NCBI GenBank assembly: GCA_938041335.1
Contig: CALIAF010000024.1
Location: forward strand, 1-63,241
Source of the DNA: an uncultured Ulvibacter sp.
GTDB taxonomy: Bacteria; Bacteroidota; Bacteroidia; Flavobacteriales; Flavobacteriaceae
Direction of reading: 5' to 3'
Length of the DNA: 63,241 nt
The translations under genes and the position numbers were made by a program. A model generated the notes under the pieces. It made no database searches and was not told where the DNA came from. It worked only from the letters and a program-made list of their open reading frames with translations. This document shows, piece by piece, positions 2,909 through 61,479 of this stretch. Each line of letters opens with the position of its first letter. Positions within the stretch are counted from its first letter, which is position 1.

Positions 2909-4762
2909 ATGAAAAAAGCAATAATTTTAGCCCTAAGCTGCTTCGCTATATTTACAAATTGTGACCAAACCGTAGAAAATGCGAGCACAAATACCTATGC
3001 AGAAGAGCCACATTCTTTTGCGCAGCCCAATGACGCTGTTATTACGCATCTAAATTTAGACATTGATGTCAACTTTGATACCCAAGTGATAACAGGAACG
3101 GCGACCTATGATATCACAAATAATGGTGCTAAAGAGATTATTCTAGATGCAAAATATTTGGACATTTCCGAAGCGACAGCAGATGGAAAAAAAACTACCT
3201 TCATACTAGGTGAGATGGATGAACAATTAGGGCAACCTTTAACTATCGCCATCACAGAAAGCACCAAAAAAATCGCGATCACCTATAAAACTACAGACAA
3301 AACAGAGGCATTACAATGGCTCAACGCACAGCAAACGGCAGATAAAAAACATCCCTTTCTATTTACCCAAGGCCAGGCGATATTAACACGTACGTGGATT
3401 CCTATTCAAGATAGTCCGCAGATACGTATTACCTATAATGCGACGGTTAAAGTACCGAAGGACCTTATGGCTGTAATGAGTGCAGAAAATCCGAAAGCAA
3501 AAACCGCAGACGGGGTTTATAATTTCAAAATGGTGCAGCCTATTCCCGCATATCTTATGGCGCTTGCCATTGGCGATATTGAATATAAAGCCATAAGCCA
3601 AAGAACAGGTGTGTATGCAGAAAAATCTATGGTTGACAAAGTGCACTATGAGTTTTCAGATATGGAAAAAATGGTGCTTGCCGCAGAAAATTTATATGGC
3701 GCCTACGATTGGGAACAATTTGATGTTATTGTACTGCCGCCTAGTTTCCCTTTTGGTGGTATGGAAAACCCGAGATTGACTTTTGCCACACCCACGGTCA
3801 TTGCAGGCGATAAAAGTTTAACCTCGCTTATTGCGCACGAATTGGCCCATTCTTGGTCAGGTAATCTAGTAACTAACGCTACCTGGAACGACTTCTGGCT
3901 TAATGAAGGCTTTACCGTCTATTTTGAAATACGTATTATGGAAGCGCTATACGGTAAAGAACGAGCTAATATGCTAGCGCTCATAGGACGACAGGATTTA
4001 GAAGAAGAATTAGAAGCTTTAAGTGATGCCCCTAATGACACCAAATTAAAACTAGATTTAAAAGGTAGAAACCCTGATGATGGTATGAACAGTATTGCAT
4101 ATGACAAAGGGTATCTCTTTTTAAGAACACTAGAAGAAAAAGTGGGTCGTGAAAAAATGGATGCCTTTTTGAAATCATATTTTAAGGAGAATGCCTTTTC
4201 AACGACAAACACAGAAGATTTTATCACTTACCTCAACGATAATTTATTGGAGAAGAATAGCATCTCATTCAATACGGAGGAGTGGATATACGAACCAGGC
4301 GTTCCTGCTAACGCGGCGATCATTGAGTCTGATGCTTTTTCTAATGCAGAAAAAGTACTACACTCTTTTATGGATACAAATACCATTAACGCTGAAGCAA
4401 CAAAAGACTGGACGACACTGCAATGGGTTCATTTTGTCCGTAACATTTCCGAAGACATCACCGTAGCACAGCTGCAACAATTAGACGATACCTTTAATTT
4501 TACGGCATCGACTAACTCGTATATTAGTATGGTTTGGTTTGAGCAAGCGATATTAAATGGCTATCATGGTAACCAAGTAGACGCTAAAATATCTGAATTC
4601 TTAAATACCGTTGGGAGACGTTGGTATGTAACGACCTTGTTTAAGGCATTTAAAAAAGCAGATCGATTGGATGAAGCTTCAGCCATTTATAAAACCGCGA
4701 GACAAAATTACCATTCCGTCACTACAAATACGATTGATGACTTGTTAGGATCCAATGAATAA
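2909..4762 (+). CDS. M1 family zinc aminopeptidase, lipoprotein
   Basis: This 617-residue protein has an N-terminal signal ending in a lipobox-like FTNC (Cys18), so it is predicted to be lipid-anchored. The GGMEN exopeptidase motif is at 283-287, the zinc motif HELAH at 310-314 and the third ligand in NEGF at about 332. A helical C-terminal domain follows from about 480. The order matches the leukotriene-A4-hydrolase / cold-active aminopeptidase branch of family M1, which removes N-terminal residues from peptides. Likely role: degradation of external or periplasmic peptides. The ATG is preceded by a weak promoter-like TACTTTA. Two copies of the 10-mer ATTTCCGAAG lie inside the gene. Confidence 0.93.
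   Translation: MKKAIILALSCFAIFTNCDQTVENASTNTYAEEPHSFAQPNDAVITHLNLDIDVNFDTQVITGTATYDITNNGAKEIILDAKYLDISEATADGKKTTFILGEMDEQLGQPLTIAITESTKKIAITYKTTDKTEALQWLNAQQTADKKHPFLFTQGQAILTRTWIPIQDSPQIRITYNATVKVPKDLMAVMSAENPKAKTADGVYNFKMVQPIPAYLMALAIGDIEYKAISQRTGVYAEKSMVDKVHYEFSDMEKMVLAAENLYGAYDWEQFDVIVLPPSFPFGGMENPRLTFATPTVIAGDKSLTSLIAHELAHSWSGNLVTNATWNDFWLNEGFTVYFEIRIMEALYGKERANMLALIGRQDLEEELEALSDAPNDTKLKLDLKGRNPDDGMNSIAYDKGYLFLRTLEEKVGREKMDAFLKSYFKENAFSTTNTEDFITYLNDNLLEKNSISFNTEEWIYEPGVPANAAIIESDAFSNAEKVLHSFMDTNTINAEATKDWTTLQWVHFVRNISEDITVAQLQQLDDTFNFTASTNSYISMVWFEQAILNGYHGNQVDAKISEFLNTVGRRWYVTTLFKAFKKADRLDEASAIYKTARQNYHSVTTNTIDDLLGSNE
3164..3173 (+). repeat. ATTTCCGAAG motif copy
   Basis: Exact copy inside the M1 peptidase gene, read there as I-S-E. 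Confidence 0.8.
4445..4454 (+). repeat. ATTTCCGAAG motif copy
   Basis: Exact copy near the 3' end of the M1 peptidase gene, again read as I-S-E. Confidence 0.8.
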
Positions 4763-4822
4763 CAAAGATTACATAGATTGATTATTAGCAATTGTATTAA
4801 CCAAAAACACTATTACAAAGCA

Positions 4823-5447: not shown

Positions 5448-5483
5448 TATCAGATAATTAGAACCTAATTAATTGATACAAAT

Positions 5484-8076: not shown

Positions 8077-9524
8077 AAAAGGCCGCACATACAAGAACAA
8101 ATTGGACTACTTGTCTTGATTGCCAAGGTCGTGGCAAAAAAAGCCAACGCATTCGTAAGAAAGCAAAATTAAGCTATAAAAAAGCAGTTGATCAATTTGA
8201 AAAGACCAATATCGGTGAAGCTCCTACTCCACCGAAAGGACATTTAGCTACTTGTACCACTTGTAATGGAACGGGTTTAAAACCGGCAACACAAGCACTT
8301 ATTCCAGACACAGAAAATTATCCCGAGGTGGCAATCATAGGTGGTGGTATTGGAGGCGTTGCTTTAGCAATTGCTTGCTTGCATCGTGGAATTCCATGTA
8401 CACTCTATGAACGTGATAATAGCTTTGATGAGCGATCTCAAGGCTATGGTCTTACGCTACAACAGGCAAGTAAAGCGATTCGGTGCTTGGGAATTTTATC
8501 TTTAGAAGAAGGTGTTATTTCTACAAGACACTTAGTGCATACCACCGATGGAAAAGTAATTGGCGAATGGGGTATGCGCAAGTGGTTGGAAGGAGAAACA
8601 AAGAAATCTCCAAAACGAACCAATATTCATATTGCTAGACAATCTTTGCGAAAGTCACTGCTAGAGCAATTAGGAGGGCCTGATAAGGTACAATGGGGAC
8701 ATCAATTAGTACATATCAAGGAAGATGGTACTAACGGGCATATTCTCAACTTCAAAGTGTCGGGTCAAAACAAAAGTGTTAAAACAGACTTAGTGGTTGG
8801 TGCAGATGGTATACGCAGTACGGTGAGGAACTTGTTTATCCCAAAAAAAATCACACCATTACAATACCTTGGTTGTATTGTAATATTGGGTATTTGTCCG
8901 TTATCAGCGCTCCAAGCACTCGAGCATTCCTTACTAGATGGAAAGACCGTATTTCAAACCGTTAACGGTACAGAACGTATGTATATGATGCCGTATGATT
9001 CCCACTCGGTGATGTGGCAATTTAGTTTTCCTATTTCAGAAGAAAAAGCAAAAGCATTAAGTAAACAAGGAGCAAGAGCCCTTAAAGAAGAAGCTTGCAA
9101 AAGAACACATTGGCATACGCCTATTCCACAGATAATGGCGGCAACTAAGGCAACACAAATTACAGGCTATCCGGTTTATGATCGTGAATTACTTACTTCG
9201 GAAATGTTAGATGATACGGGAAATGTGACGTTGATTGGAGATGCAGCACACCCCATGAGTCCTTTTAAAGGACAAGGAGCAAACCAAGCGATATTAGACG
9301 CATTAGCGTTGGCTAGAGCCATTCAAAAAGGATGTAGACCGGCATCTAACTGGAGCGCAGCAGGACTTAGAAATCAGGTTTTAACGCCCTTCGAATTAGA
9401 AATGATAAAACGCACGGCAATGAAAGTAAAAGACTCTGCGGCAGCGGTGAAGTATTTGCATTCTGAAGTGGTTTTGCAAGAAGGTGATTCGCCAAGGGGG
9501 CGAATATTAAAAGATAATACTTAA
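8073..9524 (+). CDS. FAD-dependent monooxygenase with N-terminal DnaJ-like zinc-binding segment
   Basis: The 483-residue protein is built from two parts. Residues 14-68 hold two CxxCxGxG units (CLDCQGRG and CTTCNGTG), as in the DnaJ zinc finger, separated by a basic linker. From about 85 comes a PHBH-type flavin monooxygenase: the ADP-binding G-G-G-I-G-G at about 90, DLVVGADGIRS, and the flavin-binding GDAAHPMSPFKGQG. The start is TTG at 8073, overlapping the Nudix stop; no earlier start is possible without running into that gene. The family hydroxylates aromatic or similar substrates. The role of the zinc segment is unknown; it could bind a partner protein or nucleic acid. Confidence 0.87.
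   Translation: MKKAAHTRTNWTTCLDCQGRGKKSQRIRKKAKLSYKKAVDQFEKTNIGEAPTPPKGHLATCTTCNGTGLKPATQALIPDTENYPEVAIIGGGIGGVALAIACLHRGIPCTLYERDNSFDERSQGYGLTLQQASKAIRCLGILSLEEGVISTRHLVHTTDGKVIGEWGMRKWLEGETKKSPKRTNIHIARQSLRKSLLEQLGGPDKVQWGHQLVHIKEDGTNGHILNFKVSGQNKSVKTDLVVGADGIRSTVRNLFIPKKITPLQYLGCIVILGICPLSALQALEHSLLDGKTVFQTVNGTERMYMMPYDSHSVMWQFSFPISEEKAKALSKQGARALKEEACKRTHWHTPIPQIMAATKATQITGYPVYDRELLTSEMLDDTGNVTLIGDAAHPMSPFKGQGANQAILDALALARAIQKGCRPASNWSAAGLRNQVLTPFELEMIKRTAMKVKDSAAAVKYLHSEVVLQEGDSPRGRILKDNT
9196..9205 (-). repeat. ATTTCCGAAG motif copy
   Basis: Exact copy (reverse orientation) in the monooxygenase gene; the reading frame differs from the I-S-E copies (T-S-E-M). Confidence 0.8.
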
Positions 9525-10840: not shown

Positions 10841-10866
10841 ATTTATAGTATTTCCGAATTAAATCA

Positions 10867-14514: not shown

Positions 14515-15561
14515 TTAATGTGTTAATATATCAAGATCCCATTGCTGGTTATCAGCATATCGTATACTACCTTTTTCAATTTCTAATGGTGAGGGTACAT
14601 TATTGGTAAACAAACTACCTGTCCCTAAACCTTGCGGCAAGATACTATTTTTTGTAGACGTATACTGCGCAATCCCATTGAGACCTAAATTACTCTCTAA
14701 TGCGGAAGTAATCCACCAATCAACATTTTTATCTTCAGCTAGTTCTATCCATTCATCTGTACCCTTAAAGCCGCCAATAAAGCTAGGTTTAAAAATAATA
14801 TATTGGGGCTTAATGGTATGTAATAGTCTTTTTTTCTCTTCAGAAGCAAAAACACCTATCAATTCTTCATCCAGTGCAATGGGCAAGGGTGTTTTTTCGC
14901 ATAATGCGGCCATTTCATCCCATTGTCCTTGTTTGATAGGCTGCTCTATAGAGTGTAAGTCTAAGGCAGCCAGTTGTTCTAATTTTTCTAGTGCACCTTT
15001 CGGCGAAAATGCCCCATTAGCATCCACCCGGAGTTCTATTTCATTACTATTAAATTCTCGCCTAATACTCTTAAGTAAGGCTATTTCCGAAGCAAAATCA
15101 ATTGCACCTATTTTCATTTTAATACATGAAAATCCTGCGGACAGTTTGTCTTTTATCTGCTGCTTCATAAACCCTTGGTCTCCCATCCAGATTAATCCAT
15201 TAATCGGAATTCCAGTTTTTCCACTAGAAAATGGCGTGTCAAATAGTTGAAATGGATCTTGGGATTGTAATGACAGAAATGCCATTTCTATTCCTATTTG
15301 TATGGAAGGAAATTGGATAAGGGCATCATACAGTTGCTCCTTACCAAAGTTAATATTCTCGCAAACCCATTGTAGTTTTTCCTCATAATCAGGACGGTCA
15401 TCGATACTTAGTCCACGGAGTAGCCCACATTCGCCATAGCCTTTTTTACCATTTTTTTCAATAATGATAAAGTAGGTCTCTTTTGTTTTTAAAACACCGC
15501 GAGAAGTACCACTTGGGTTTTTAAACTGGAGGATGTGTTTTTTATATGATGCTTTGATAAT
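14515..15561 (-). CDS. menC: o-Succinylbenzoate synthase, with non-standard (AUU-type) start
   Basis: Enolase-superfamily enzyme that dehydrates SHCHC to o-succinylbenzoate. The catalytic set is present: K-M-K, the metal ligands in RVDANG, SIEQP and ALDEEL, and the base in FKPSFIGG. The first ATG is at 15285, but the 92 codons upstream in the same frame encode the whole N-terminal capping domain: KASYKK, the family landmark PSGTSRG, then ETYFIII and GYGECGLLRG. That stretch contains no ATG, GTG or TTG before the stop at about 15582. Initiation at ATT (15561) or ATC (15558) gives about 348 residues, the normal MenC length. A start at 15285 would leave the enzyme without its capping domain. Confidence 0.88.
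   Translation of the reverse strand: MIKASYKKHILQFKNPSGTSRGVLKTKETYFIIIEKNGKKGYGECGLLRGLSIDDRPDYEEKLQWVCENINFGKEQLYDALIQFPSIQIGIEMAFLSLQSQDPFQLFDTPFSSGKTGIPINGLIWMGDQGFMKQQIKDKLSAGFSCIKMKIGAIDFASEIALLKSIRREFNSNEIELRVDANGAFSPKGALEKLEQLAALDLHSIEQPIKQGQWDEMAALCEKTPLPIALDEELIGVFASEEKKRLLHTIKPQYIIFKPSFIGGFKGTDEWIELAEDKNVDWWITSALESNLGLNGIAQYTSTKNSILPQGLGTGSLFTNNVPSPLEIEKGSIRYADNQQWDLDILTH
15083..15092 (+). repeat. ATTTCCGAAG motif copy
   Basis: Exact copy inside menC, on the non-coding strand (gene reads A-S-E-I). Confidence 0.8.
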
Positions 15562-16516: not shown

Positions 16517-17197
16517 TTATAATTCAATGGATGCTCCAATCTCCAGGAGCATCAAATCTTTATTCGCGTCGTAAAACTTTCTTTTTGCCTCGGTATGATC
16601 AATCTCAATATAGCCAAAGGTATCATAATGAACGCCCAATACTTTATCACATTCCACAAAATCACTCGCGGTGATGGCGTCATCAATGCCCATGGTAAAA
16701 TTATCGCCTATGGGTAAGATAGCGAGATCTAACTTGGTGCGTAAGGGGATTAATTTCATATCCATTGTGAGTGCCGTATCGCCTGCGATATAGATGTTTT
16801 TATGTTCACCTTCTATTACAAAGCCACCAGGTTGACCACCATTACTCCCATCAGGAAATGTACTGGTGTGAACAGCGTTTACATATTTGACGTTTCCGAA
16901 GTCAAACTGCCAGTTGCCCCCGTGATTCATGGGGTGTACCTCAAACCCTTTGGCTTGATAGTGCATGGCAATCTCATAATTACTTACAATAACAGCATTT
17001 GTATTTTTTGCGATAGCGGCTGCATCCAGAATGTGATCTTGATGCGCGTGTGTGAGTAAAATATAATCTGCTTTTAGGCTCATAATATCTACTTTATCTT
17101 TGGCAAGCTCGTTACCAGTAATAAAAGGATCTACAATTATGTTTGTTTCGCCTATGGTAATAGCGAGCGTATTCTGACCGTAAAAAGTGATTTTCAT
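16517..17197 (-). CDS. Metal-dependent hydrolase, MBL fold (UPF0173 type)
   Basis: The 226-residue protein has the metallo-beta-lactamase-fold zinc motif THAHQDH at about 50, further ligands in AVHTSTFPDG and YIAGDT, and a C-terminal H-Y-D-T. Size and motifs match the UPF0173 / L-ascorbate-6-P-lactonase-like group, whose substrates are mostly unknown. It sits 12 bp after menA in the menaquinone operon. I cannot assign a reaction. Confidence 0.88.
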   Translation of the reverse strand: MKITFYGQNTLAITIGETNIIVDPFITGNELAKDKVDIMSLKADYILLTHAHQDHILDAAAIAKNTNAVIVSNYEIAMHYQAKGFEVHPMNHGGNWQFDFGNVKYVNAVHTSTFPDGSNGGQPGGFVIEGEHKNIYIAGDTALTMDMKLIPLRTKLDLAILPIGDNFTMGIDDAITASDFVECDKVLGVHYDTFGYIEIDHTEAKRKFYDANKDLMLLEIGASIEL

Positions 17198-18665: not shown

Positions 18666-18675
18666 CTTCGGAAAT
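18666..18675 (-). repeat. ATTTCCGAAG motif copy
   Basis: Exact intergenic copy 8 bp after the doxX stop. Confidence 0.8.
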
Positions 18676-18799: not shown

Positions 18800-21425
18800 A
18801 AAACCCAACGCCTAACTTCACAGCAATACGAAGTCCCTCATCACTATGAAATGCTGAGATATCACCTACTAATACTCCCGTAGTATCAAAAAACAATCCG
18901 CCACCTACAGCTGTTTTCCAATCTTTTGACACATCATTAACACCCCATACTCTACCGTGATCAAAACCAGCATATATCCCTAAATCTATAGGGATTAATT
19001 TTGTTTGCAAACGATTTAATTTAAATTGCAAATCACTGCTTTGCACAAAAGAATTAATCCCTGTAAATCGTTGATTGCGATATCCACGCAGTCCACTTTC
19101 TGCCCCTAAGCTAGCTCCTTGATAGAACTCAATGTTATTGTTAAAGTTAATATAAGTGGCTAAACTATTAACAAGCTTTACCCGTTCATTCTTGTCAAAT
19201 GGAAGGCCCAATTTAAGCTGTGGGTTTATGAATACCGCATTGCTTGTTTCTGTAAGATTAAATGAATTTCCGGCAATTAGAGTAGCGTCCACATCAAAAA
19301 ACGGAATATAATCTTGTACGGTATCACTGAAATTTGCGGCTGCAACAAGTTCGACAAATTTATTTTCTGGCACACTGTCCAAGCCATTATAATAGGTTTC
19401 AATAAAACGATTGTTGGTTTCATCAATATTGATTGATGCATATCCAATAGATGTCTTTAATGAATATCCTGAAGGGTCACGATAAGCAATGGAGGGTGCG
19501 ATTCTAAACTTCTGTATCCGCACTCTGTTATAATTTAATCTAAAATTTTCAGGGTCTTCCTTATTTGGATTTATACTCTCATTTCCGAAGCCAAAAAAAT
19601 TGAGGGTATAATTAGGGCTTGTAAAGTGAATATCTAGCCCCGGATCCAGCTTGCCAATAACGTGAGTCCATTGCCCGGAATATTGTAAATCAAAACCAGA
19701 AGTGGCAAAATAAAAGGAAGCACCTAGCGTATGTTGTTGAGCAAATGGCAAATGCTGAAAACCATAATCTGTAAACGTGTTTTCTACACCTACACGTAAA
19801 CCATCATCAATATTCACCCCAAGCAAAGGCCTTAGTTTATTTGCATACCGGTGTACCCTTTTATAATTGTAAATACCTGCTTCCGGTTCATCTATCAATT
19901 TAACCTTTAAATTTTCAGCTGGAGCACCTTGAGAAGGAAAATCATACAAGTGTATATTTTCTTTATTTTTAATGTCATAGCTATCGTCGTTTTGGCCTCC
20001 AAAAATGGAAATTGGGATATGCTTTATTTCAGTACCAACAACTTGAAAAGAATCGTTGCCTTCTAGACCGTATAACCAAACTCGATTAGTACTTTCTTTG
20101 TATATAGTCTGCTTATAAAAAGGAGTTTCAGATCCGTTGATTTGATGTCCAGTGATAATAGTATGACCATCTGGCATTCTTGAAATGGTGAAACGATCAT
20201 CTTTATCTGTCCCCTTAACAACAACTAGTTTACTAAGTAACGCGACATAAGACGCCACAAGTTGAGGTAGATTGTCTCTCCTTTCTTTTAAGTTAATAGT
20301 GATTTCTTCGGAAATTCTAGCTTCTAATTCTTGTGGTATTCTAGCAAAGGCTTTTTCAATTACATCTTCTGTTAAACCCTGCATCATCTTTTCTGCTTCG
20401 GCATCCCAAAAGGCTAAATCAAGATTTGAAATTAAAGTTTTATCTAATGCAAAGGCACTTCTATTTAACCATTTTGGATCTAATAATTCGCCATCATAGT
20501 TTTCTAAATGACGGTGTCTTTTTGAAAAAAAAGTGGTCAATCTCATTAAAGGTCCATCTCCCATTTTAGAAAATGCTTGATCGCTATTTTTTGAAATAGG
20601 TGTATACATAGTAGAACCATTTGCACGCACCCCCAACCAATCCCATTGTGATGCTCCACGGTTCCAATCGCCAATAAGCATATCAAATATACGGGCTCTA
20701 ATGTATGCGGTTTCGTCAATTTTATTTGATGCGTCTGCTCGTAACGCAGCTAAGACTTGTTTGGTAGTAACAATAGTGTCTTTTTCTGATGGGTTTCCAT
20801 TCTTTAAAATTTCAGAAGGTATTTGTTTTTCTATGTAATAGAGCGCATCACCAAAGTTATTAGCGTAGGAACCTAAAGCTCCATCACGAGGCACATATAT
20901 TAATGAAGGAAACGTATGGACCACGTCTAAATCACGTGCTAATGAACCCACTGCAAGCGAAATGTATGGGTGCGCACCCGTGCCCATATCATCAATAAAA
21001 TCTGCCGTATAGGTGTCGTCGAGCGCTCCAAGCTCATACTCTTCTTTTAAGGTTTTGTTGTTGAGGTATGCTGTAGGATTTTTACGTAAGGCTCGTAGGG
21101 TATATTTTGTATTGTGTTCATCTGCCAATAAAAGTACACGGGAGTGATCACCCCCTACTTGCTGCATCACTTTTAAACCATTTTTATACGTGTCAAGTGG
21201 CACAACTGGTGCAGTAATTGTTGTAGTATAGGCTTGTCTATAACGAGCTCCATATAAAGAAACGTAAAAGTAACCTCTTAACATTTCGGTCTCCAAAAAA
21301 ACACTAGTACGTATTTTTTCTGCAGCAAAGGTATCCTGAACGTTTTGATTATTGTCTTGCGCTTGTATTAAAACCGTGCACAGCATACAAACACTCAAAA
21401 GGAACAAAAAACGGTTTTTAAACAT
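18798..21425 (-). CDS. BamA/TamA-type outer-membrane beta-barrel protein with large N-terminal domain
   Basis: The 875-residue protein has a signal peptide (1-22). The last ~350 residues look like an Omp85-type barrel: alternating beta strands, a late G-A-E-S-G-L-R-G-Y-R-N-Q-R-F-T-G motif and the terminal phenylalanine KLGVGF. The N-terminal ~430 residues are not POTRA repeats. They contain D-M-L-I-G-D-W-N-R-x3-Q-W and later I-S-K-N-S-D-Q-A-F, a pattern found in Bacteroidota barrel fusions and reminiscent of kinase-fold phosphotransferases, although NR here replaces a more usual DRH. Role unknown; it may move or modify a surface substrate. Confidence 0.75.
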   Translation of the reverse strand: MFKNRFLFLLSVCMLCTVLIQAQDNNQNVQDTFAAEKIRTSVFLETEMLRGYFYVSLYGARYRQAYTTTITAPVVPLDTYKNGLKVMQQVGGDHSRVLLLADEHNTKYTLRALRKNPTAYLNNKTLKEEYELGALDDTYTADFIDDMGTGAHPYISLAVGSLARDLDVVHTFPSLIYVPRDGALGSYANNFGDALYYIEKQIPSEILKNGNPSEKDTIVTTKQVLAALRADASNKIDETAYIRARIFDMLIGDWNRGASQWDWLGVRANGSTMYTPISKNSDQAFSKMGDGPLMRLTTFFSKRHRHLENYDGELLDPKWLNRSAFALDKTLISNLDLAFWDAEAEKMMQGLTEDVIEKAFARIPQELEARISEEITINLKERRDNLPQLVASYVALLSKLVVVKGTDKDDRFTISRMPDGHTIITGHQINGSETPFYKQTIYKESTNRVWLYGLEGNDSFQVVGTEIKHIPISIFGGQNDDSYDIKNKENIHLYDFPSQGAPAENLKVKLIDEPEAGIYNYKRVHRYANKLRPLLGVNIDDGLRVGVENTFTDYGFQHLPFAQQHTLGASFYFATSGFDLQYSGQWTHVIGKLDPGLDIHFTSPNYTLNFFGFGNESINPNKEDPENFRLNYNRVRIQKFRIAPSIAYRDPSGYSLKTSIGYASINIDETNNRFIETYYNGLDSVPENKFVELVAAANFSDTVQDYIPFFDVDATLIAGNSFNLTETSNAVFINPQLKLGLPFDKNERVKLVNSLATYINFNNNIEFYQGASLGAESGLRGYRNQRFTGINSFVQSSDLQFKLNRLQTKLIPIDLGIYAGFDHGRVWGVNDVSKDWKTAVGGGLFFDTTGVLVGDISAFHSDEGLRIAVKLGVGF
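19581..19590 (+). repeat. ATTTCCGAAG motif copy
   Basis: Exact copy within the outer-membrane protein gene, on its non-coding strand; the gene reads F-G-N-E here, a third reading frame. Confidence 0.8.
20306..20315 (-). repeat. ATTTCCGAAG motif copy
   Basis: Exact copy within the outer-membrane protein gene, read I-S-E-E. Confidence 0.8.
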
Positions 21426-22725: not shown

Positions 22726-22735
22726 CTTCGGAAAT
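22726..22735 (-). repeat. ATTTCCGAAG motif copy
   Basis: Exact intergenic copy between the divergent holA and HsdR-N-like genes, 61 bp before the ATG of the latter and directly next to a TATCTTTA promoter-like box. Confidence 0.8.
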
Positions 22736-22796: not shown

Positions 22797-23243
22797 ATGC
22801 AGCAACTACAGTTTCCTTCTTATGAGTTTCGTTTCAAAAGTAACGAAAACAAACCGATGATTTTTGACGTGGTCAGGAAAAAATTTGTAGTACTCACTCC
22901 AGAAGAATGGGTGCGGCAACATGTGGTGCATTATCTTATTTCAGAAAAAAAATATCCGCTATCTTTAATCAACGTAGAAAAACAAATAAAGCTACATAAA
23001 ACTACTAAACGCTATGACGTGGTGGTTTTTAACAGTGATGGTAGCATACATCTTATTGTAGAATGTAAGGCACCAAAAATAGCAATCACGCAAGAAACCT
23101 TTGACCAGATTGCGCGCTATAATTTTGTGCTCAATGCCACTAACCTAATGATTACTAATGGGCTAACGCATTATTATTGCCGTATGGATTTTGAGAAAGA
23201 ACGTTATCTCTTTTTAGAAGACCTTCCCGCCTATTTAGATTGA
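22797..23243 (+). CDS. Type I restriction HsdR N-terminal-like nuclease domain protein
   Basis: The 148-residue protein is essentially a single PD-(D/E)xK-like domain: R-Y-D-V-V-V-F then I-V-E-C-K-A-P. It matches the HsdR_N_2 family, common as a small standalone protein next to holA in Flavobacteriia. No hsdM or hsdS is nearby, so it is not part of a restriction system here. The nuclease residues look intact, but its role is unknown. Confidence 0.85.
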   Translation: MQQLQFPSYEFRFKSNENKPMIFDVVRKKFVVLTPEEWVRQHVVHYLISEKKYPLSLINVEKQIKLHKTTKRYDVVVFNSDGSIHLIVECKAPKIAITQETFDQIARYNFVLNATNLMITNGLTHYYCRMDFEKERYLFLEDLPAYLD

Positions 23244-32213: not shown

Positions 32214-32570
32214 ATGGAAGACTTTGATTTCTTTTTAGACTTTTTATATCCATTACCATTAGTAAAAAAGAGCCTCTTTGGGACTACTTCGTATTACTTA
32301 GATGATAAAATACTCTGTGCTACTTGCATCAATGAGAAGTTTCCAGATGATACAGGGATATGGATTTCTACTCCTCCAGAATATCACGAATTCCTATTTC
32401 CGAAGTTAAAAAACCATCGTTTTTTAAAAAGAGTACCTACAAAAAAATGGATATTACTACCAGCAGAAAGTGACTTCTTTGAAGAAGACGCAAGAACAAT
32501 CGCAGCCTTAATTAAACAAGGTAGCCCATGGATTGGTACTGTGCCAAAACCAAAAAAGAAAATTAAGTAA
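32214..32570 (+). CDS. Small protein of unknown function (118 aa)
   Basis: I do not recognise a defined family with confidence. The sequence is mixed alpha/beta: G-T-T-S-Y-Y-L-D-D-K-I-L-C, then G-I-W-I-S-T-P-P-E-Y-H and K-K-W-I-L-L-P-A-E, with a lysine-rich tail PKPKKKIK. The layout resembles the MmcQ/YjbR fold but key positions cannot be checked by eye. It is divergent from the sialidase-like gene with 48 bp between them and stands alone. Confidence 0.7.
   Translation: MEDFDFFLDFLYPLPLVKKSLFGTTSYYLDDKILCATCINEKFPDDTGIWISTPPEYHEFLFPKLKNHRFLKRVPTKKWILLPAESDFFEEDARTIAALIKQGSPWIGTVPKPKKKIK
32396..32405 (+). repeat. ATTTCCGAAG motif copy
   Basis: Exact copy in the 118-residue protein gene, read L-F-P-K-L, a frame not used by the other copies on the coding strand. 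Confidence 0.8.
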
Positions 32571-34042: not shown

Positions 34043-34052
34043 CTTCGGAAAT
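34043..34052 (-). repeat. ATTTCCGAAG motif copy
   Basis: Exact intergenic copy, in the predicted 5' leader of rimO between its -7 box and ATG. Confidence 0.8.
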
Positions 34053-36313: not shown

Positions 36314-37561
36314 TTAGTTTTTTGATAATTCTTTTAGCAGCATTTCTAAGGCTTTATTATGTGCCTTTGCGATTACTCGTTCGCGATGATCTCCAAGACT
36401 AAATTCTTCCACCATAACGCCCCTTGGGCCAGCTATAGCAATACATACTGTTCCTACCTCTTTATTTGTATCTCCTTTGGCGGGTCCAGCTACACCTGTT
36501 GTTGCCAACCCATAATCAGATTTAAATAAATCCCTACTGTTTTCTGCCATAGCGCATGCCACCTCAATACTCACCACAGTGTGTTTTTCAATTAAGCGTG
36601 AATCAACTTTTAAAATTTCTGTTTTAAGTGCTGTACTATAGGGTATTAATCCTCCTTTAAAATATGAAGATGCTCCCGCTATTGCAGTTATTGACTTTGC
36701 GATTGAACCTCCAGTACAACTTTCTACCACACTTAAGGTATGTCCTTTTTCAACCAGTATTTCTGAAATGCGCCCTACTAAACTTGTTTCGTCTTCATAA
36801 CCAATGGCAATGTCTTGTAGTATTTCAGAAAGAAGCAACATTTGTTTATTTACGGCGTACTCAACTTTAATTTTATCAACCCCTGTAGAAGACAATCTTA
36901 AACGTACACTACCAAAAGATGGTAAATACGCTAATTTTATATACTCTGGCAATGCCTCTTCCCAGGCCGTAATGCGTTCTTGAATCTGGCTTTCTCCTTG
37001 TCCAAAGGTGAGCAGGGTCTTATGATAAATATGTGGTCGTTTAAACTTAACCTTCACTCTTGGCAACACCTCATTTTTTAATAATGCCTTCATCTCAAAT
37101 GGGACTCCTGGCATAGATACAAATACAGTATTGTTTTTTTCCATCCACATTCCAGGAGCGGTACCATGGGCGTTCCTTAGTATGGATGCTTTACTCGGCA
37201 CCATCGCCTGTGTGAGGTTTGAAGGCAAGGGGTCTCTTTTTAAATGCGTTTTAAATATATCGTGAATATGCGCTAAAACAGTGTGGTTTTCAATGAGTGT
37301 ATCATTAAAGTACTCTAGAAACATTGCTTTAGTAATATCATCTTTGGTAGGCCCTAGCCCTCCGGTCAACAAAACAAGATCTACTCTATCGTTTGCTTGA
37401 GCCAGCGCATCTAAAATCTGGGAAGACTCATCTTGAATAGAAGTGATTTGAAGCACCTTAACCCCAATTTTATTGAGTTCTGCGCCTATAAAAGCAGAGT
37501 TGGTATCTACTATTTGACCTATTAAGATTTCGTCTCCAATAGTAATAATTTCTGCAAGCAT
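36314..37561 (-). CDS. cinA: CinA-family protein (competence/damage-inducible; NMN deamidase domain)
   Basis: The 415-residue protein has two domains. The N-terminal MoaB/MogA-like domain has I-T-I-G-D-E-I-L-I-G-Q-I-V-D-T-N and L-T-G-G-L-G-P-T-K-D-D. The C-terminal CinA/PncC domain has V-V-E-S-C-T-G-G-S-I-A and T-G-V-A-G-P-A. Known members hydrolyse ADP-ribose and deamidate NMN in pyridine nucleotide salvage. The Hpt gene ends 2 bp upstream, so both are in one operon. Confidence 0.94.
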   Translation of the reverse strand: MLAEIITIGDEILIGQIVDTNSAFIGAELNKIGVKVLQITSIQDESSQILDALAQANDRVDLVLLTGGLGPTKDDITKAMFLEYFNDTLIENHTVLAHIHDIFKTHLKRDPLPSNLTQAMVPSKASILRNAHGTAPGMWMEKNNTVFVSMPGVPFEMKALLKNEVLPRVKVKFKRPHIYHKTLLTFGQGESQIQERITAWEEALPEYIKLAYLPSFGSVRLRLSSTGVDKIKVEYAVNKQMLLLSEILQDIAIGYEDETSLVGRISEILVEKGHTLSVVESCTGGSIAKSITAIAGASSYFKGGLIPYSTALKTEILKVDSRLIEKHTVVSIEVACAMAENSRDLFKSDYGLATTGVAGPAKGDTNKEVGTVCIAIAGPRGVMVEEFSLGDHRERVIAKAHNKALEMLLKELSKN

Positions 37562-38541: not shown

Positions 38542-38641
38542 GTGGATAAAATATTTGATAAAGCAGAAGATGTAATACCCGTTTTAAGCATCTTCTAGTT
38601 GATTAATGATAGCCAATGTCCCTTCGAAATTTTCGGAAATA

Positions 38642-39415
38642 TTAAAGTTTATTATTTAGGGTATTTAATTTTATTCTGGTCAATACTTTCTTAGTATATA
38701 AAGGGAAATCTGCATTAAGCAGCCACCCAAAATAGCCTGGTTCTTTTTCAAGTATATCAAGAACTAGTGATCCTTTATGTTTTCCGAAGGCAAATGTTTC
38801 TTGCCCTTTTTTATTAATACCAATATAACCAGCAAAATCTGCAAACTTATTATGTGCGCTAAAGGTGGACAAAAAAGAAACATCATTCTCAAGTTCATCG
38901 TACCGGTCCAGTTGAGATTTTAAAACCTCGTACGTTGCGTTTGTGTCTGCGGCTGCGCTATGAGCGTTTTTAAGTTCTTCATTGCAATAAAACATATATG
39001 CCGCTTCTAACGTGCGCTTCTCTTTTTTATGAAAAATAGTTTGCACATCTACAGAAGCTGCTTTTTTAAGATCATAGTCAATCTCAGCTCTTAGTAACTC
39101 TTCTGCTAATAAAGGAATATCAAAACGATTAGAATTATAACCTCCAAGATCACAATCTTTAATTAATGCAAATATCTTAGGTGCGAGTTCTTTAAAAGTA
39201 GGCTCATTTACTACCATCTCATCTGTGATACCATGTATAGCACTAGTAACTGCCGGAATAGGAATCGTTGGGTTTACCTTCCAAACAAAACTCTCTTTAT
39301 TTCCGTTAGGAAATACTTTGAGTACAGCTATTTCTACTATTCTATCATTAGCGATATTAATTCCTGTGGTTTCCAGATCAAAAAAACAGATGGGTTTACT
39401 TAATTTTAATTGCAT
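38642..39415 (-). CDS. 3'-5' exonuclease, DnaQ-like (DEDD)
   Basis: The 257-residue protein has ExoI F-F-D-L-E-T-T-G at 11-18, ExoII with the later D-L-G-G-Y-N-S-x-R-F-D, and ExoIII with H-S-A-A-A-D, giving the acidic residues of the DEDDh type. A C-terminal ~60 residues (F-A-F-G-K-H-K-G-S-L) lie beyond the nuclease fold. It is likely a proofreading or repair exonuclease. A near copy of the 10-mer (38781-38789) lies in the gene and another (38632-38640) just after its stop. Confidence 0.9.
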   Translation of the reverse strand: MQLKLSKPICFFDLETTGINIANDRIVEIAVLKVFPNGNKESFVWKVNPTIPIPAVTSAIHGITDEMVVNEPTFKELAPKIFALIKDCDLGGYNSNRFDIPLLAEELLRAEIDYDLKKAASVDVQTIFHKKEKRTLEAAYMFYCNEELKNAHSAAADTNATYEVLKSQLDRYDELENDVSFLSTFSAHNKFADFAGYIGINKKGQETFAFGKHKGSLVLDILEKEPGYFGWLLNADFPLYTKKVLTRIKLNTLNNKL

Positions 39416-47917: not shown

Positions 47918-48250
47918 GGTACAGGCAACCTCAAAATCCATATTATTATTTTTTAATATGGAATAAAATTCAGGATTTTCAGTTCCAGGATTAAAGATGA
48001 CACGTTTTGGTTTTAACGAGATAATGTACTCATAAAAAGGCTCTTGCCTTGTGGGATTAAGATATAATGTCACAGTATCAATATCCCTAAAATCTTCTTT
48101 TTCTACCGAAATAGTAACGCCTGAAACCTCACCTACTCTAAGACCAATTGCAACTACGGGATGATCATAACTTATTAAACGATGGATGGCAATATTTGAG
48201 TACCTATTAGACTTCAAACTCGCACCAATAACTAAGGTTTTCTTTTTCAT
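47888..48250 (-). CDS. CoA-binding domain protein
   Basis: The 120-residue protein has a Rossmann-like fold with T-L-V-I-G-A-S-L-K-S-N-R-Y-S-N-I-A at the N-terminus, matching the CoA_binding_2 family (succinyl-CoA synthetase alpha-like). The terminal 30 bp overlap the symporter gene from the opposite strand. Function unknown; family members often bind CoA or nucleotides. Confidence 0.85.
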   Translation of the reverse strand: MKKKTLVIGASLKSNRYSNIAIHRLISYDHPVVAIGLRVGEVSGVTISVEKEDFRDIDTVTLYLNPTRQEPFYEYIISLKPKRVIFNPGTENPEFYSILKNNNMDFEVACTLVLLGTNQY

Positions 48251-48493: not shown

Positions 48494-48503
48494 ATTTCCG
48501 AAG
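48494..48503 (+). repeat. ATTTCCGAAG motif copy
   Basis: Exact intergenic copy between the two terminators downstream of fabH. Confidence 0.8.
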
Positions 48504-49944: not shown

Positions 49945-50033
49945 CAAAATGCAAAATGGTATTGCTTTTGAATATTTCAGAAGCAAAGAAATTAATTTAA
50001 TTAAACATTCCTGCTTACTGCGGGACAATACAT

Positions 50034-51926
50034 ATGAGCAAAGGAACAATTAATGTAGCGGTAGAGAATATCTTCCCGCTTATCAAGAAATTTTTATATA
50101 GCGATCACGAGATTTTTTTACGTGAGCTAGTGAGTAACGCCACAGATGCGACCTTAAAACTGAAGCACCTTACTAATATAGGTGAAGCAAAAGTGGACTA
50201 CGGAAATCCTAAAATCGAGGTAAAGATTGATAAAGAAGCAAAAACACTTCATATTATTGATCAAGGTATAGGGATGACCTTAGAAGAAGTAGATAAATAC
50301 ATCAACCAGATTGCATTTTCTGGGGCAGAAGAATTCATTGAAAAATATAAAGATACCAAAGGAGAAGACGCAGGAATTATTGGACATTTTGGTCTTGGTT
50401 TTTATTCCGCTTTCATGGTAGCAGAGAAAGTTGAGATTTTCACAAAATCGTTTAAAGAAGAGCCAGGAGCACACTGGTCTTGTGATGGTTCTCCTAACTA
50501 CACACTAGAAGAAACAGATAGAAAAGAAAGAGGGACAGAAATCATTCTTCATATTTCTGAAGACGAAAAGGAATTTCTAGAAGATGGAAAAATCACAGGG
50601 CTTTTATCAAAGTATAACAAGTTTATGCCTATTCCAATAAAGTTTGGAATGAAGACAGAGACCTTACCAAAGCCAGAAGATGCAAAAGAGGAAGACCCTG
50701 CGCCTACACAAGAAGTAGAAAATATCATTAATAATCCTAATCCAGCTTGGACTAAAACACCTACGGAGTTAAAAGACGAGGATTATTCTACTTTTTACAG
50801 AGAACTATATCCTTCGCAGTTTGAAGAGCCACTTTTTAACATTCACTTAAATGTGGATTATCCTTTTAATCTAACGGGAATTTTATATTTCCCAAAGATG
50901 AGTCAAGATATGCAAATACAAAAGGACAAGATACAGTTGTATCAAAACCAAGTATTTGTAACTGATAATGTAGAAGGTATCGTACCAGAGTTTTTACAAA
51001 TGCTTCGTGGAGTTATAGACTCTCCAGACATCCCTTTAAATGTATCGCGTAGTTATTTACAAGCAGATGGTGCAGTTAAGAAAATATCGAGCTATATCAC
51101 CCGTAAAGTAGGTGATAAATTAAAAAGCCTTTTTAACGAGAGTAGAGAAGATTTTGAAGCAAAATGGAATGACATTAAAATCGTAATCGAGTACGGAATG
51201 CTTACTGAAGATAAATTCTTTGACAAGGCACAGGACTTTATGTTATACCCAACGGTAGATGGAAAATATTTCACCTTCACCGAATTAAAAGAGAAGCTTG
51301 CCGCAACACAAACAGATAAGGACGAAAAGTTAGTATTGTTATATGCAAGTAATAAAGAAGAGCAACATAGTTACATACAGTCTGCTCAAGACAAAGGATA
51401 TGAAGTTTTATTACTAGACTCTCCTATTATCTCTCACCTCATCCAAAAAATGGAAACGAGCAACGAGAAGGTAAGTTTTGCAAGAGTAGATGGTGATCAT
51501 ATAGATAACCTCATCAAAAAAGATGAAGCGGCAATCTCTAAGTTAAATGATGAAGAAAAAGAAACACTAAAAACATTCTTAACAGATGCCATCCCGGCAG
51601 ACAAGTTTACGGTGCAGCTAGAGGCAATGGATAGTAATGCTAATCCATTTACCATCACAGAACCAGAATTTATGCGCCGTATGAAAGAGATGCAGCAATC
51701 TGGTGGCGGTGGCGGTATGTTTGGAATGGGTGGTTTTCCAGAAATGTATAACCTCATTGTAAATACAAATAACGAGTTGGTTTCTGAAATTTTAAACACC
51801 AAAACTGCTAAGAAGAAAGAACGATTGGTGAATCAAGCTTTAGACCTCGCCAAGCTGAGCAAAGGGCTTTTAAAAGGGGAAGATATGACAGCGTTTATTA
51901 AACGTAGTTATGAGATGATTAAATAA
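50034..51926 (+). CDS. htpG: Molecular chaperone HtpG (Hsp90)
   Basis: The 630-residue protein has the Hsp90 GHKL ATPase domain: E-L-V-S-N-A-T-D-A, D-Q-G-I-G-M and G-H-F-G-L-G-F-Y-S. The middle domain contains V-S-R-S-Y-L-Q (the usual ATPase-assisting Arg), and there is a C-terminal dimerisation domain. A short glycine/methionine-rich stretch (GGGGGMFGMGGFPE, about 560-573) lies near the C-terminus. It assists folding of client proteins under stress. It is closed by a terminator. Confidence 0.95.
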   Translation: MSKGTINVAVENIFPLIKKFLYSDHEIFLRELVSNATDATLKLKHLTNIGEAKVDYGNPKIEVKIDKEAKTLHIIDQGIGMTLEEVDKYINQIAFSGAEEFIEKYKDTKGEDAGIIGHFGLGFYSAFMVAEKVEIFTKSFKEEPGAHWSCDGSPNYTLEETDRKERGTEIILHISEDEKEFLEDGKITGLLSKYNKFMPIPIKFGMKTETLPKPEDAKEEDPAPTQEVENIINNPNPAWTKTPTELKDEDYSTFYRELYPSQFEEPLFNIHLNVDYPFNLTGILYFPKMSQDMQIQKDKIQLYQNQVFVTDNVEGIVPEFLQMLRGVIDSPDIPLNVSRSYLQADGAVKKISSYITRKVGDKLKSLFNESREDFEAKWNDIKIVIEYGMLTEDKFFDKAQDFMLYPTVDGKYFTFTELKEKLAATQTDKDEKLVLLYASNKEEQHSYIQSAQDKGYEVLLLDSPIISHLIQKMETSNEKVSFARVDGDHIDNLIKKDEAAISKLNDEEKETLKTFLTDAIPADKFTVQLEAMDSNANPFTITEPEFMRRMKEMQQSGGGGGMFGMGGFPEMYNLIVNTNNELVSEILNTKTAKKKERLVNQALDLAKLSKGLLKGEDMTAFIKRSYEMIK

Positions 51927-59400: not shown

Positions 59401-61479
59401 GCTATAGAAGAAACCTGCGGAAATACTCAAATAATTACCCGTACTTGGTTTTCTGAAGATGGTTGCGGTAGTGACATCGTCTCTTGTATTCAAACCATTA
59501 CCATACAAGATGGCATTCCTCCCACTGTAGACTGTCCAGAAGATATTACAGTAAACACAGACCCTGAGCAATGTACTGCAATAGTAGATTATGAAATACT
59601 AGCAAATGATACCTGCGGAAATGTGACTATAAATTTAATAAATGGGATAGCATCTGGTAGCGAGTTCCCAATAGGAGATACCATTAATGAATTTGAAATA
59701 GTGGATGACTGCGGAAATATTACTGAATGTTCTTTTACAGTTACTGTAGAAAACACCACTTTGCCAGAAGCGGTTTGCCAGAACATTACCATACAATTAG
59801 ACCAAAATGGCATAGCGTCTATTACCGCAGCAGATGTGAATGTAAGTTCTGGAACGATCTGTTTAAATGCAATCGCTACCATTGATATAGACACTTTTGA
59901 CTGCTCAAACATTGGTGACAATGATGTGGTCTTGACGGTTGAAGACGATGACGGTAATATGGATAGCTGTACGGCAGTAGTAACTGTTGAAGACACTCTA
60001 GCTCCAGAAGCCATTTGCGCATCTATTACAGTAGCTTTAGATGATGCAGGGATGGCAACAATTACAGCAGAAATGCTGGATGGCGGCAGTACTGACAACT
60101 GCCAAATCGCTTCTTTTGATGCGAGTATTACCTCATTTGATTGTACCATGTTAGGGGACAACACGGTAATACTTAGCGTGACTGATGCATTTGGTAATGT
60201 TTCAGATTGTGATGCTATTGTAACTGTTGTAGATAATGTACTACCTACTGCGAGTTGTCAAAACGTAACCGTAGCACTTGATGCTGACGGAATAGCAATG
60301 ATTGAACCTGATGCTATTGACAACGGTAGTACTGATAACTGCGGAAATGTGACTGTCGAAATTAATGTAACAACATTTAACTGTGATAATATTGGAACTA
60401 ATGATGTGGTACTAACAGTTACCGATGAAAGCGGAAATGTTTCTCAATGTGATGCCATTGTAACCATTGTAGACAATGTATTGCCTACTGCTAGTTGTCA
60501 AAATATAGAAGTAGAAGTAAATGAAGATGGCGACATCATTATCATTACGCCAGAAATGATAGATAACGGCAGTACAGATAATTGTCAGATTGCATCTTAT
60601 GAACTTGACATCACAGAATTTGATTGTAGTAACCTTGGTGAAAACGAAGTACAATTAACCGTAACAGACACTTCCGGCAATCAAGCCACTTGTACCGCAA
60701 TAATAACGGTAAATCCGCCGAGTGCTGCACCCATTGCGGCCTGCCAAAACGTGAGTGTTGTCCTTGATGAAAATGGATTTGGCACACTTGCGCCACAGAA
60801 TATTTCGGCAAATAATGCATTTAATATTTGCGGATATACACTTACAGTAGATATCGACACCTTTAATTGTGATGACGCCGGCACTACGATTCCAGTAACA
60901 TTAACAGTGACAAATGCGGGTGGCCTTAGCGATAGTTGTATTGCAAACGTTTTTGTAGTTGATAATTTAGACCCTACAATTGAGTGTCCTGAAGAAACCG
61001 TGGTTGTTGCATCTATCGCGCCTTATGCTCTCCCAGACTTTATAGCAGATGGTACTGTAATCGTCTCAGATAACTGTTTAGATCAATCAACCGTAACACA
61101 AGATCCAGAAGTGGGGACAATGGTAGGTGAAGGTGAAACAGAAATCACTGTAACTATAACCGACCCAAGTGGCAATATCGCAAGTTGTAGTTTTGACATT
61201 TTTGTAGATCCAACTCTATCAACAAGTACTTCGGAAATTTTAAGCGCTTTACAACTCTTCCCTAATCCAACTTTAGGTAGTTTTAGCTTTTCACATGCTG
61301 ATGGTATTTCAATTAAAAAAGTAACAGTCTTAGATATTTCAGGAAGAAATATAAAGAGCTTTGGTATTTCAGAAATACAACAAAATCAATTTTCTATAGC
61401 CGAAATAGCAAGCGCAACCTATTTTATATCTATCGAAACAGAAAATGAAAACAAAATGGTACAGTTGATAAAACGATAA
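56434..61479 (+). CDS. M36 (fungalysin) metalloprotease with P-domain, HYR-like repeats and T9SS sorting
   Basis: The 1,681-residue secreted protease has a signal (1-21, ending NVFG) and an FTP/PepSY-type propeptide (about 40-200). The catalytic domain has zinc motif H-E-Y-G-H at 424-428 and E-G-W-S-D-Y-Y-G downstream (third ligand Glu). A proprotein-convertase P-type beta domain follows at about 715-865 (LNVALDISHSYVEDM, then LGTWTITIQD). Ig-like/HYR-like repeats begin at about 950, and a T9SS type A sorting domain ends at MVQLIKR. It probably degrades proteins outside the cell. Its C-terminal ~730 residues align in register with those of the preceding gene. Confidence 0.93.
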   Translation: MKLKNLLLFVFTLICFNVFGQKHSKAQQGISNISLAQLIKNPDNSFIITKENTSSISGVKHMYLRQAINGIEVLGTESSVHVLANGTVLKTHNSFINDISEKITSSSTSLDAAQAIAAVAQKKGYSIINLNTIETSTAVNRKSLFSNGGISNREIPAELVYFKTNTGIRLAWDISIDEVTSPNWYNYIIDAATGEILETYNWTLSCNILGDHKDHVHTTKENVFIGPLELPTPDVTNEEALVGSYFVYPMPIESPNYGAPSVVVDPDNAVASPFGWHDTDGTAGAEFTITRGNNVFAYDDINNTDSPGFSPDGGAALNFNFPINTTYSVADPSLSGVITNLFYWNNIIHDVMYQYGFDSDSGNFQENTYGLGGIGNDSVNAEAQDGLSTCNAFFGTPADGGSPRMQMFVCGDRDGDLDNGVIVHEYGHGISNRLTGGAANANCLTNQEQMGEGWSDYYGLMHTLEPGDIGTQARPIGTWLLGQGPNDNGIRTFPYSTDFAINPHTYDDITTEAIPHGVGSVWANMLWEMTWELIALEGFDPDIYNGTGGNNTSLALVTEGLKLQPCSPGFVDGRDAILAADQALYGGSHICEIWAAFARRGLGFSATQGSSDSRSDGTEAFDLPPTFSSLDVIEEVCLADGIQTGLGGGSPVGGVYSGIGVTDDGNGATFTFDPSISGAGLVTISYATTDFCTGAPGVLMDDILVTDEPPVIICVGSGLLEMNGSFEDSPGLVIEDLNTVSTTIEITQDVMLTDLNVALDISHSYVEDMIITLISPAATPVVIFNGTTDGCSGNNLVSLLDDESVNPFNCNNGAAFPEPNYIPSNALTAFDGESTLGTWTITIQDTFNADPGVLNNWRLDYTYEVNSLPLDVQLDITGNATITADQLLESVFVACGGYTVTAGTPLAPAVSFTNADIGLNNVNVLVTSDTGQTAMCVAVANVIPNDGGQEITCPEDVTIACGDDSSPANTGMATAVSSCDPNPVITFSDAIEETCGNTQIITRTWFSEDGCGSDIVSCIQTITIQDGIPPTVDCPEDITVNTDPEQCTAIVDYEILANDTCGNVTINLINGIASGSEFPIGDTINEFEIVDDCGNITECSFTVTVENTTLPEAVCQNITIQLDQNGIASITAADVNVSSGTICLNAIATIDIDTFDCSNIGDNDVVLTVEDDDGNMDSCTAVVTVEDTLAPEAICASITVALDDAGMATITAEMLDGGSTDNCQIASFDASITSFDCTMLGDNTVILSVTDAFGNVSDCDAIVTVVDNVLPTASCQNVTVALDADGIAMIEPDAIDNGSTDNCGNVTVEINVTTFNCDNIGTNDVVLTVTDESGNVSQCDAIVTIVDNVLPTASCQNIEVEVNEDGDIIIITPEMIDNGSTDNCQIASYELDITEFDCSNLGENEVQLTVTDTSGNQATCTAIITVNPPSAAPIAACQNVSVVLDENGFGTLAPQNISANNAFNICGYTLTVDIDTFNCDDAGTTIPVTLTVTNAGGLSDSCIANVFVVDNLDPTIECPEETVVVASIAPYALPDFIADGTVIVSDNCLDQSTVTQDPEVGTMVGEGETEITVTITDPSGNIASCSFDIFVDPTLSTSTSEILSALQLFPNPTLGSFSFSHADGISIKKVTVLDISGRNIKSFGISEIQQNQFSIAEIASATYFISIETENENKMVQLIKR
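61229..61238 (-). repeat. ATTTCCGAAG motif copy
   Basis: Exact copy in the linker before the T9SS domain of the M36 protein (T-S-E-I). Confidence 0.8.

Follow-up and report, generated by a model that had tools for sequence, protein, structure and literature searches.

A dispersed 10-mer and its copies in the window

The DNA under study is a stretch of 63,241 nucleotides (positions 1 to 63,241 of contig CALIAF010000024.1, assembly GCA_938041335.1; hereafter the window) from the genome of an uncultured Ulvibacter sp. of the Flavobacteriaceae, assembled as 3.25 Mb in 63 contigs and here called the home genome. It carries many copies of a 10-mer, ATTTCCGAAG (hereafter the word), which is strongly over-represented on both strands and is probably the central part of a DNA uptake sequence. 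The 14 exact copies in the window were found at precisely the coordinates and on the strands listed in the original prediction, and, as also predicted, most were genic, ten of them falling inside open reading frames (ORFs) of at least 80 amino acids. Two lie in the M1 peptidase ORF 2909-4762 (3164..3173 and 4445..4454, both +), one in the FAD-binding ORF 8073-9524 (9196..9205, -), one in the enolase C-terminal-like ORF 14515-15285 on the minus strand (15083..15092, +), two in ORF 18798-21425 (-), which has no Pfam family (19581..19590, +, and 20306..20315, -), two in the glycosyltransferase ORF 28634-29866 (-) (28744..28753, -, and 29682..29691, +), one in ORF 32214-32570, again with no Pfam family (32396..32405, +), and one in ORF 56434-61479, an M36 peptidase with a secretion-system sorting tail (61229..61238, -). 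The intergenic copies occupy a convergent spacer, 7 bp after the DoxX ORF 18278-18658 (18666..18675, -), a divergent spacer between ORFs 21615-22619 (-) and 22797-23243 (+) (22726..22735, -), a tandem spacer, 33 bp upstream of the radical SAM ORF 32705-34009 (-) (34043..34052, -), and the spacer between ORFs 47888-48250 (-) and 48663-49667 (-) (48494..48503, +). The divergent pair consists of a DNA polymerase III delta-like ORF (21615-22619) and an HSDR_N_2 ORF (22797-23243), the latter coding for a small protein that has the N-terminal domain of type I restriction R alone. Six further copies had been predicted to differ from the word only at an end base; all six exist, although not every position predicted for them was the start of the 10-mer. 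They are ATTTCCGAAT at 10850..10859 (+) and 31221..31230 (+), GTTTCCGAAG at 16892..16901 (+), ATTTCCGAAA at 29392..29401 (-) and 38631..38640 (-), and TTTTCCGAAG at 38780..38789 (+).

The 14 exact copies, seven on each strand, compare with an expectation of 0.13 in dinucleotide shuffles, none of 100 of which reached 14, and of 0.29 under an order-4 Markov model, i.e., an excess of about 48-fold at a window GC content of 0.370. The excess first noted in the window was borne out in the entire genome, where 474 copies (235 on the plus and 239 on the minus strand) were counted against 17 of the reversed word. The density of the exact word in the home genome was thus 0.15 per kb, or one copy per 6.8 kb. 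A draw of 199 Flavobacteriaceae genomes, one per genus apart from the home genus, contained a sole congener, G076, and in this genome 605 copies were found against 21 of the reversed word. In about 0.4 Mb of each of the two congeners the word was the top 10-mer, with a z of 47.

The word is independent of coding and enriched in spacers

A coding-aware null was built by shuffling synonymous codons (30 shuffles) in ORFs of at least 90 amino acids, taken from our own longest-ORF gene calls, such that all protein sequences and the overall usage of codons were preserved. Against this null, genic copies of the word numbered 83 versus 2.4 in 807 kb of the home genome (35-fold) and 42 versus 0.3 in G076 (158-fold), and all six frame and strand classes were used. 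The reversed 8-mer control GAAGCCTT stayed near its null (26 versus 22.5 in the home genome and 11 versus 8.2 in G076), and two word-free genomes, G014 and G010 (40 kb each), showed no excess of the inner 8-mer TTCCGAAG (1 versus 0.7 and 0 versus 0.4, respectively). These results uphold the original statements that the copies use several reading frames and that coding does not explain what may be a site read by a protein.

With regard to location, 43 of 128 copies in the home genome fell in the 10.8% of DNA that is intergenic, as did 34 of 76 in the 10.7% of G076, giving a 3- to 4-fold enrichment of the word in spacers. In a slightly larger sample of 844 kb there were 149 copies, of which 86 were genic and one unclassified. 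The spacer copies were similarly dense in all spacer types, namely 37 in 49.6 kb of tandem, 17 in 20.4 kb of divergent and 8 in 10.9 kb of convergent spacers, which argues against a promoter or terminator function; no preference for either was found among the spacer types, there was no fixed distance to gene starts, and the majority of copies were genic. Terminator hairpins were considered and rejected, as inverted pairs 24-25 bp apart occurred only three times in the 844 kb, where about one was expected by chance from a rough density estimate.

Orientation was examined on stretches of sequence, with the origin and terminus unmapped. No strand bias was found in these stretches, adjacent copies being on the same strand in 85 of 188 cases and on opposite strands in 103, and the first 400 kb of G076 had strands in the ratio 37:39. 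A role as a replication-termination organiser, one of the functions originally proposed, found no support, since both strands carry copies all along the stretches that were read. The sole outlying motif-free gap was one of 44 kb on contig C7 (25.8-70.1 kb), of whose 32 larger ORFs 20 were scanned by Pfam. Its last 18 kb contain the genes of ribosomal proteins S7, L3, L4, L2, S3, L5, L6 and S5, EF-G, SecY and RNA polymerase alpha, and the remainder contains RadC, rhomboid, SusC/SusD-type and Omp85-type genes. It is likely that the strong coding constraint of the ribosomal cluster accounts for part of this gap only. A reading of such motif-poor stretches as islands of mobile DNA was considered and rejected; no island was identified.

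Anatomy of the extended site

The word is embedded in a larger site, which in both congeners reads TAAY-ATTTCCGAAG-N-AA and then becomes A-rich. Both genomes showed a strong preference for T at position -4 and for A at -3, -2, +11 and +12, with almost no G at -1, and the same preference was seen when genic (127) and intergenic (77) copies were examined separately. The intergenic copies showed an additional preference for T (-14 to -12) and for A (-11 to -9, and also +13 and +14). It had originally been stated that the flanks are not conserved, which is refuted by their conservation in genic and intergenic copies alike; it was missed because 14 copies are too few to reveal it.

The core itself contains an odd dyad, TTCNGAA, and is strict, being of the form TTTC-N-GAA-R, with positions 1, 6 and 8 tolerating single changes and the other positions hardly any. 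Of the copies with one mismatch, 154 of 196 in the 807 kb of the home genome and 61 of 68 in G076 were changed at one of these three positions, and at the seven non-tolerated positions perfect copies outnumbered one-mismatch copies by 128 to 42 and 76 to 7, respectively. Positions 6 and 10 are coupled, such that the 844 kb contained 149 copies of ATTTCCGAAG and 110 of a second form, ATTTCAGAAA, whereas ATTTCCGAAA was below expectation (6 versus 14.5). The flanks of the second form were the same as those of the first.

A profile of 24 columns was built from 189 sites of G076 and scanned over the 807 kb of the home genome. At 10 bits or more it found 532 sites, compared with 82 in one order-4 Markov simulation, i.e., an excess of approximately 0.56 per kb, which became 0.63 per kb at 8 bits. 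The window had 39 profile hits of at least 12 bits, among which two pairs were one place read on both strands. The top-scoring site of the window was a copy of the variant ATTTCAGAAG at 49974..49983 (+, 22.6 bits), and another copy of it scored 21.1 bits at 9033..9042 (+). The second form ATTTCAGAAA was found at 61366..61375 (+, 19.9 bits), 22938..22947 (+, 18.7 bits) and 36822..36831 (+, 18.1 bits), and the variant ATTTCTGAAG at 50553..50562 (+, 18.3 bits); the end-base variants at 31221 and 38780 scored below 12 bits.

The word in related genomes

Among the 199 family genomes, only G076 neared the home genome in copies of the exact word, the next being G012 with 181. The inner 8-mer TTCCGAAG was spread more widely: in 17 of the 199 genomes, the two congeners included, it was at least three times as frequent as its reversed control, compared with a median ratio of 0.68, and the strands were balanced in each of the 17 rich genomes. 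Measured against the synonymous null, it was enriched in G101 (112 versus 16.2), G198 (57 versus 14.3) and G012 (58 versus 4.6), and so was TTCAGAAA in the same three genomes (101 versus 23.7, 87 versus 27.9 and 20 versus 5.5, respectively), all of which also have A after the core at one or more positions. The enrichment changes sharply between genera.

Conservation of individual sites was followed between the two congeners in 80 reciprocal best pairs. Of eight genic sites of the home genome with an aligned ortholog, three were exact in G076 and three more differed only at the tolerated position 6, and of nine sites of G076, three were exact in the home genome and two more differed at one base. 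The background conservation of exact 10-mers was 11%, or 5% for those containing CCGA or TCGG. These small numbers are suggestive of site conservation.

Loci from named organisms were also collected, 80 being fetched by a search with the outer-membrane barrel described below; the 72 of at least 14 kb were counted, these loci being too short for a reliable classification of the genera. The richest was the locus of Altibacter sp. HG106, with 14 copies in 22.9 kb, together with that of Psychroserpens sp. SPM9, with 10 in 22.8 kb. A further draw of 246 genomes covered the whole order and included 40 from the family of the window. A milder excess was seen there outside the family, where the 9-mer TTTCCGAAG reached at most about three times its reversed control (at 20 or more copies), mostly in family code f5, e.g., 147 versus 46 in G323 and 106 versus 36 in G343.

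Competence genes and a candidate reader

The home genome contains one match each to ComEC and DprA, as well as helix-hairpin-helix (HhH) proteins, one of which is 295 amino acids long with two HhH matches. On contig C61 it also encodes P0001, a CarboxypepD_reg protein of 951 amino acids (an outer-membrane barrel), directly followed by P0002, of 729 amino acids and with two DUF5689 stretches. At an E value of 0.001, 192 of the 199 family genomes had a match to P0001 and 181 had one to P0002; weak matches to P0001 may represent other barrels. In 79 of the 80 named loci the barrel was followed by a gene of the P0002 type, and the remaining locus is truncated by the end of its contig. In Riemerella anatipestifer, transformation is described as requiring ComEC, DprA, ComF and RecA, among others, and also RA0C_RS04915, an outer membrane protein with a carboxypeptidase-regulatory domain, and RA0C_RS04920, a DUF5689/choice-of-anchor protein that adjoins it; the pair is reported to be widespread in Flavobacteriaceae (PMC8459023). 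The P0001/P0002 pair matches this essential pair in domains and adjacency, the comparison being one of architecture and not of the Riemerella sequences, and ComEC and DprA are likewise common to both organisms (PMC8459023).

Thirty-two aligned homologues of P0002 share an invariant cysteine, Cys 22, after an N-terminal stretch predicted to be helical, which we read as a lipoprotein signal, making P0002 a putative surface lipoprotein. No chain in the PDB matches P0002 by sequence. The AlphaFold2 model of a Marinirhabdus homologue had a mean predicted local distance difference test score (pLDDT) of 83 and a predicted TM-score (pTM) of 0.48, and its C-terminal domain matched jelly rolls, such as the gingipain cleaved-adhesin and MAM domains. 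The first DUF5689 domain modelled alone scored better (pLDDT 89, pTM 0.86), and the best 50 of its 864 PDB hits were mostly nucleic-acid binders of the oligonucleotide/oligosaccharide-binding (OB) fold, including RPA, Teb1, HIN domains (some with double-stranded DNA), SSB and POT1. It is to be noted that these matches were weak, three of the 864 hits reaching an E value of 0.001 (best 3.9e-4) and the TM-scores being below 0.5. The modelled domain thus weakly resembles tandem OB-fold DNA binders and makes P0002 a candidate reader of the word, as a lead and not as proof.

The homologues of P0002 also vary in size. Those of the home genus (L213-L216) and a few relatives (L133, L146, L198) have about 720-745 amino acids and, by length, two DUF5689 halves, others have 650-705 (e.g., L141, L134, L135, L176, L187 and L188), and most relatives have about 450-500.

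Interpretation of the word as a DNA uptake sequence

We consider it probable that a DNA uptake sequence of a Flavobacteriaceae genus, of the kind known as DUS or, elsewhere, as uptake signal sequence (USS), has ATTTCCGAAG as its core; of the candidates in the original prediction this is the best supported, with the uptake function itself, the binding, the reader and the drive being what we infer from the pattern. Binding of the word would take place at the cell surface, on free double-stranded DNA, and DNA carrying the word would be taken up more. Through uptake and recombination, resident alleles would repeatedly be replaced by incoming ones, and the word would spread and be kept. Such a drive would enrich the word wherever coding allows, which would account for the spacer excess in the home genus, the pattern of tolerated changes, the lack of copies in the ribosomal cluster, and the dialects of the genera. 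Less firmly, P0002, with its DUF5689 and jelly-roll domains, might act as the reader together with its neighbour, the barrel P0001, and the DNA might then be passed to ComEC, DprA and RecA.

Several observations weigh against this interpretation. First of all, we know of no uptake experiment in this organism. One-mismatch copies taken together exceed perfect ones in the home genome (196 versus 128), while G076 has 68 versus 76. In five relatives, TTCCGAAG showed no clear enrichment in spacers (0.4 to 1.5 fold), the spacer copies being 4 of 116 in G101, 3 of 60 in G198, 7 of 65 in G012, 1 of 13 in G054 and 2 of 8 in G063. The spacing of the word over all gaps had a coefficient of variation (CV) as for random placement; with the 44-kb gap set aside post hoc, it was slightly more even than random, but weakly so (CV 0.856 versus 0.961, P 0.042), and the largest remaining gap was then 19.4 kb (P 0.010). 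A strong P0001 match was present in all 17 rich genomes (ratio of at least 3) and also in 162 of the 182 others, such that the presence of the barrel was rejected as a predictor of the word (Fisher P 0.23) and the barrel alone cannot be its cause; in addition, one rich genome, G058, which is 80% complete, had no P0002 match. The 20 barrel proteins closest to P0001 were placed on a tree, 11 of them with the label 'ratio of at least 2.5'. This label required eight changes, three of them forced by well-supported branches, and its clustering did not exceed that of shuffled labels. The idea that the word clusters on this tree was therefore rejected, which suggests that the word was gained, changed or lost often, or that the barrel genes moved. 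Finally, the exact word, at 0.15 per kb, is sparser than the classical DUS and USS, for which a density close to 1 per kb is given (PMC1626085).

The main rival, which we regard as unlikely, is a Chi-like site, where an AddAB helicase-nuclease would read the word on one strand and turn from degradation to recombination. The original prediction had already placed a recombination hotspot behind other candidates for want of a strand bias, and this holds, although Chi remains the foremost alternative. Chi resembles the word in being short, dispersed and over-represented, and differs in that the word has no orientation bias, conserved AT-rich flanks and enrichment in spacers. The density is close to that of Chi in E. 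coli, two PDDEXK_1-domain proteins that are AddA/AddB-like by size and nearness occur at G000:C11:77-83 kb, and RecC was looked for in vain. Nonetheless, the 85 same-strand neighbours fall short of the approximately 117 that a 75:25 bias would give, and the balance in G076 points the same way. Known AddAB Chi words have 5-8 nucleotides and no flanks, whereas in genic copies here conservation extends to about ten positions of the flanks outside the core, and the 3- to 4-fold excess in spacers also speaks against Chi.

Behind it, and no better than a long shot, comes a binding site for an abundant nucleoid-associated or global regulatory protein. That most copies are genic and in all frames speaks against such a protein, as do the lack of preference for divergent over convergent spacers, the lack of a fixed distance to starts, and the sharp differences in enrichment between genera; the odd dyad TTCNGAA, the AT-rich flanks and the spacer enrichment would suit it. 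It appears improbable that the word is a self-marker for a restriction, defence or spacer-acquisition system, not connected with uptake: a system that spares word-carrying DNA would be expected to enrich the word on both strands, but conserved AT-rich flanks are unusual for markers of the methylation type. Lastly, a by-product of codon or amino-acid bias, of mutation bias, or of a degraded mobile repeat is very improbable. Coding by itself would produce some of the TTCAGAAA-type words (86.8 are expected and 220 seen in genes of the home genome), but for the 10-mer synonymous shuffles gave 2.4 copies against the 83 observed. The copies occur in spacers and six frames and have no longer element in common; among the window's 20 largest repeat families, a single 19-nucleotide family with 4 copies lies around the core, which is what the preference in the flanks predicts.

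Comparison with known uptake systems

Outside Neisseriaceae and Pasteurellaceae, sequence-specific uptake guided by a word in the genome is not known to be well established, and a DNA uptake sequence in this genus would be the first known in Bacteroidota. Among the matches listed in the open-licence PubMed Central literature, none identified an uptake word in Bacteroidota. The USS of Pasteurellaceae (types AAGTGCGGT and ACAAGCGGT) is described as a strict core of 9-10 bp with AT-rich flanks, dispersed at high density, and with subclade types that have a partly common core, all of which is similar here; its core is unrelated, however, its flanks lie 3' of the core and not on both sides, and the exact word here is sparser (PMC1626085). 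The DUS of Neisseriaceae is likewise an over-represented 10-mer with genus dialects around a small common core, and is reported to be bound by ComP (PMC3630211), but in the account of PMC1626085 it has no flanking motif, unlike the site described here. The Neisseriaceae dialects are said to follow the core-genome tree (PMC3630211), whereas on the barrel tree the enrichment seen here is scattered. The site thus has the architecture of a USS and variants between genera around a common core like those of the DUS, the core words being different.

In Riemerella, R. columbina is reported to favour its own DNA, and the same source identifies no uptake word, its raw counts of 7-10-mers giving low-complexity A/T-rich words (PMC7965970). 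The genomes of competent R. anatipestifer and R. columbina are described as having no pilus homologues (PMC8459023). A bolder proposal, which we put forward tentatively and regard as doubtful in its entirety, is that Flavobacteriaceae possess a third, independently evolved uptake language, in which a DUF5689 lipoprotein of OB fold (HIN-like), not a type IV pilin, would be the reader and would hand double-stranded DNA to a dedicated barrel, with genus dialects on TTC-N-GAA. These dialects would be ATTTCCGAAG and ATTTCAGAAA in the home genus, TTCCGAAG in others, and perhaps GCTTTCGCGAAAGC in Dokdonia and Nonlabens.

The word is most likely a tag by which these marine bacteria recognise and take in the DNA of their own kind. 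If so, it would add a third case, in another phylum and with a different envelope machine, allowing a comparative test of why uptake words arise, and would suggest a reason for the preference of R. columbina for its own DNA. It would also offer a handle for the genetics of marine flavobacteria, the word being placed on donor DNA.

Other repeated words

A different dispersed word, GCTTTCGCGAAAGC(G), was encountered in some relatives. In the form TTCGCGAAA it had 6-10 copies per 15-23 kb in five named loci, namely L187, L188 and L197 (Dokdonia) and L201 and L202 (Nonlabens), and four copies each in another Dokdonia (L176) and in L204. In G010 (L064-L065) there were 14 copies per 40 kb, and the numbers expected are near 0. 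A search with TTTCGCGAAAGCG gave no match in the open-licence PubMed Central literature. It may represent a further uptake dialect or else a separate repeat of palindromic form.

Further repeated words were seen in individual genomes. G027 (L046-L050) has a repeat with the words CTCCCTTTAGGG and AACCCCACGAA, at about 13-18 copies in 100 kb, and G045 (L045) has the words TCCGAGTACACAC and AACAACGTGTATA, at 8-13 copies in 18.8 kb. In the locus of Salegentibacter sp. R32 (L185), the words GTGAATTGC and GTCATGATT occur 63-64 times in 22.9 kb in an array-like manner. The home genome itself (L021-L040 and the window) contains CACTACTCACTA-type words, at 10-13 copies in 444 kb, which possibly form a tandem array.

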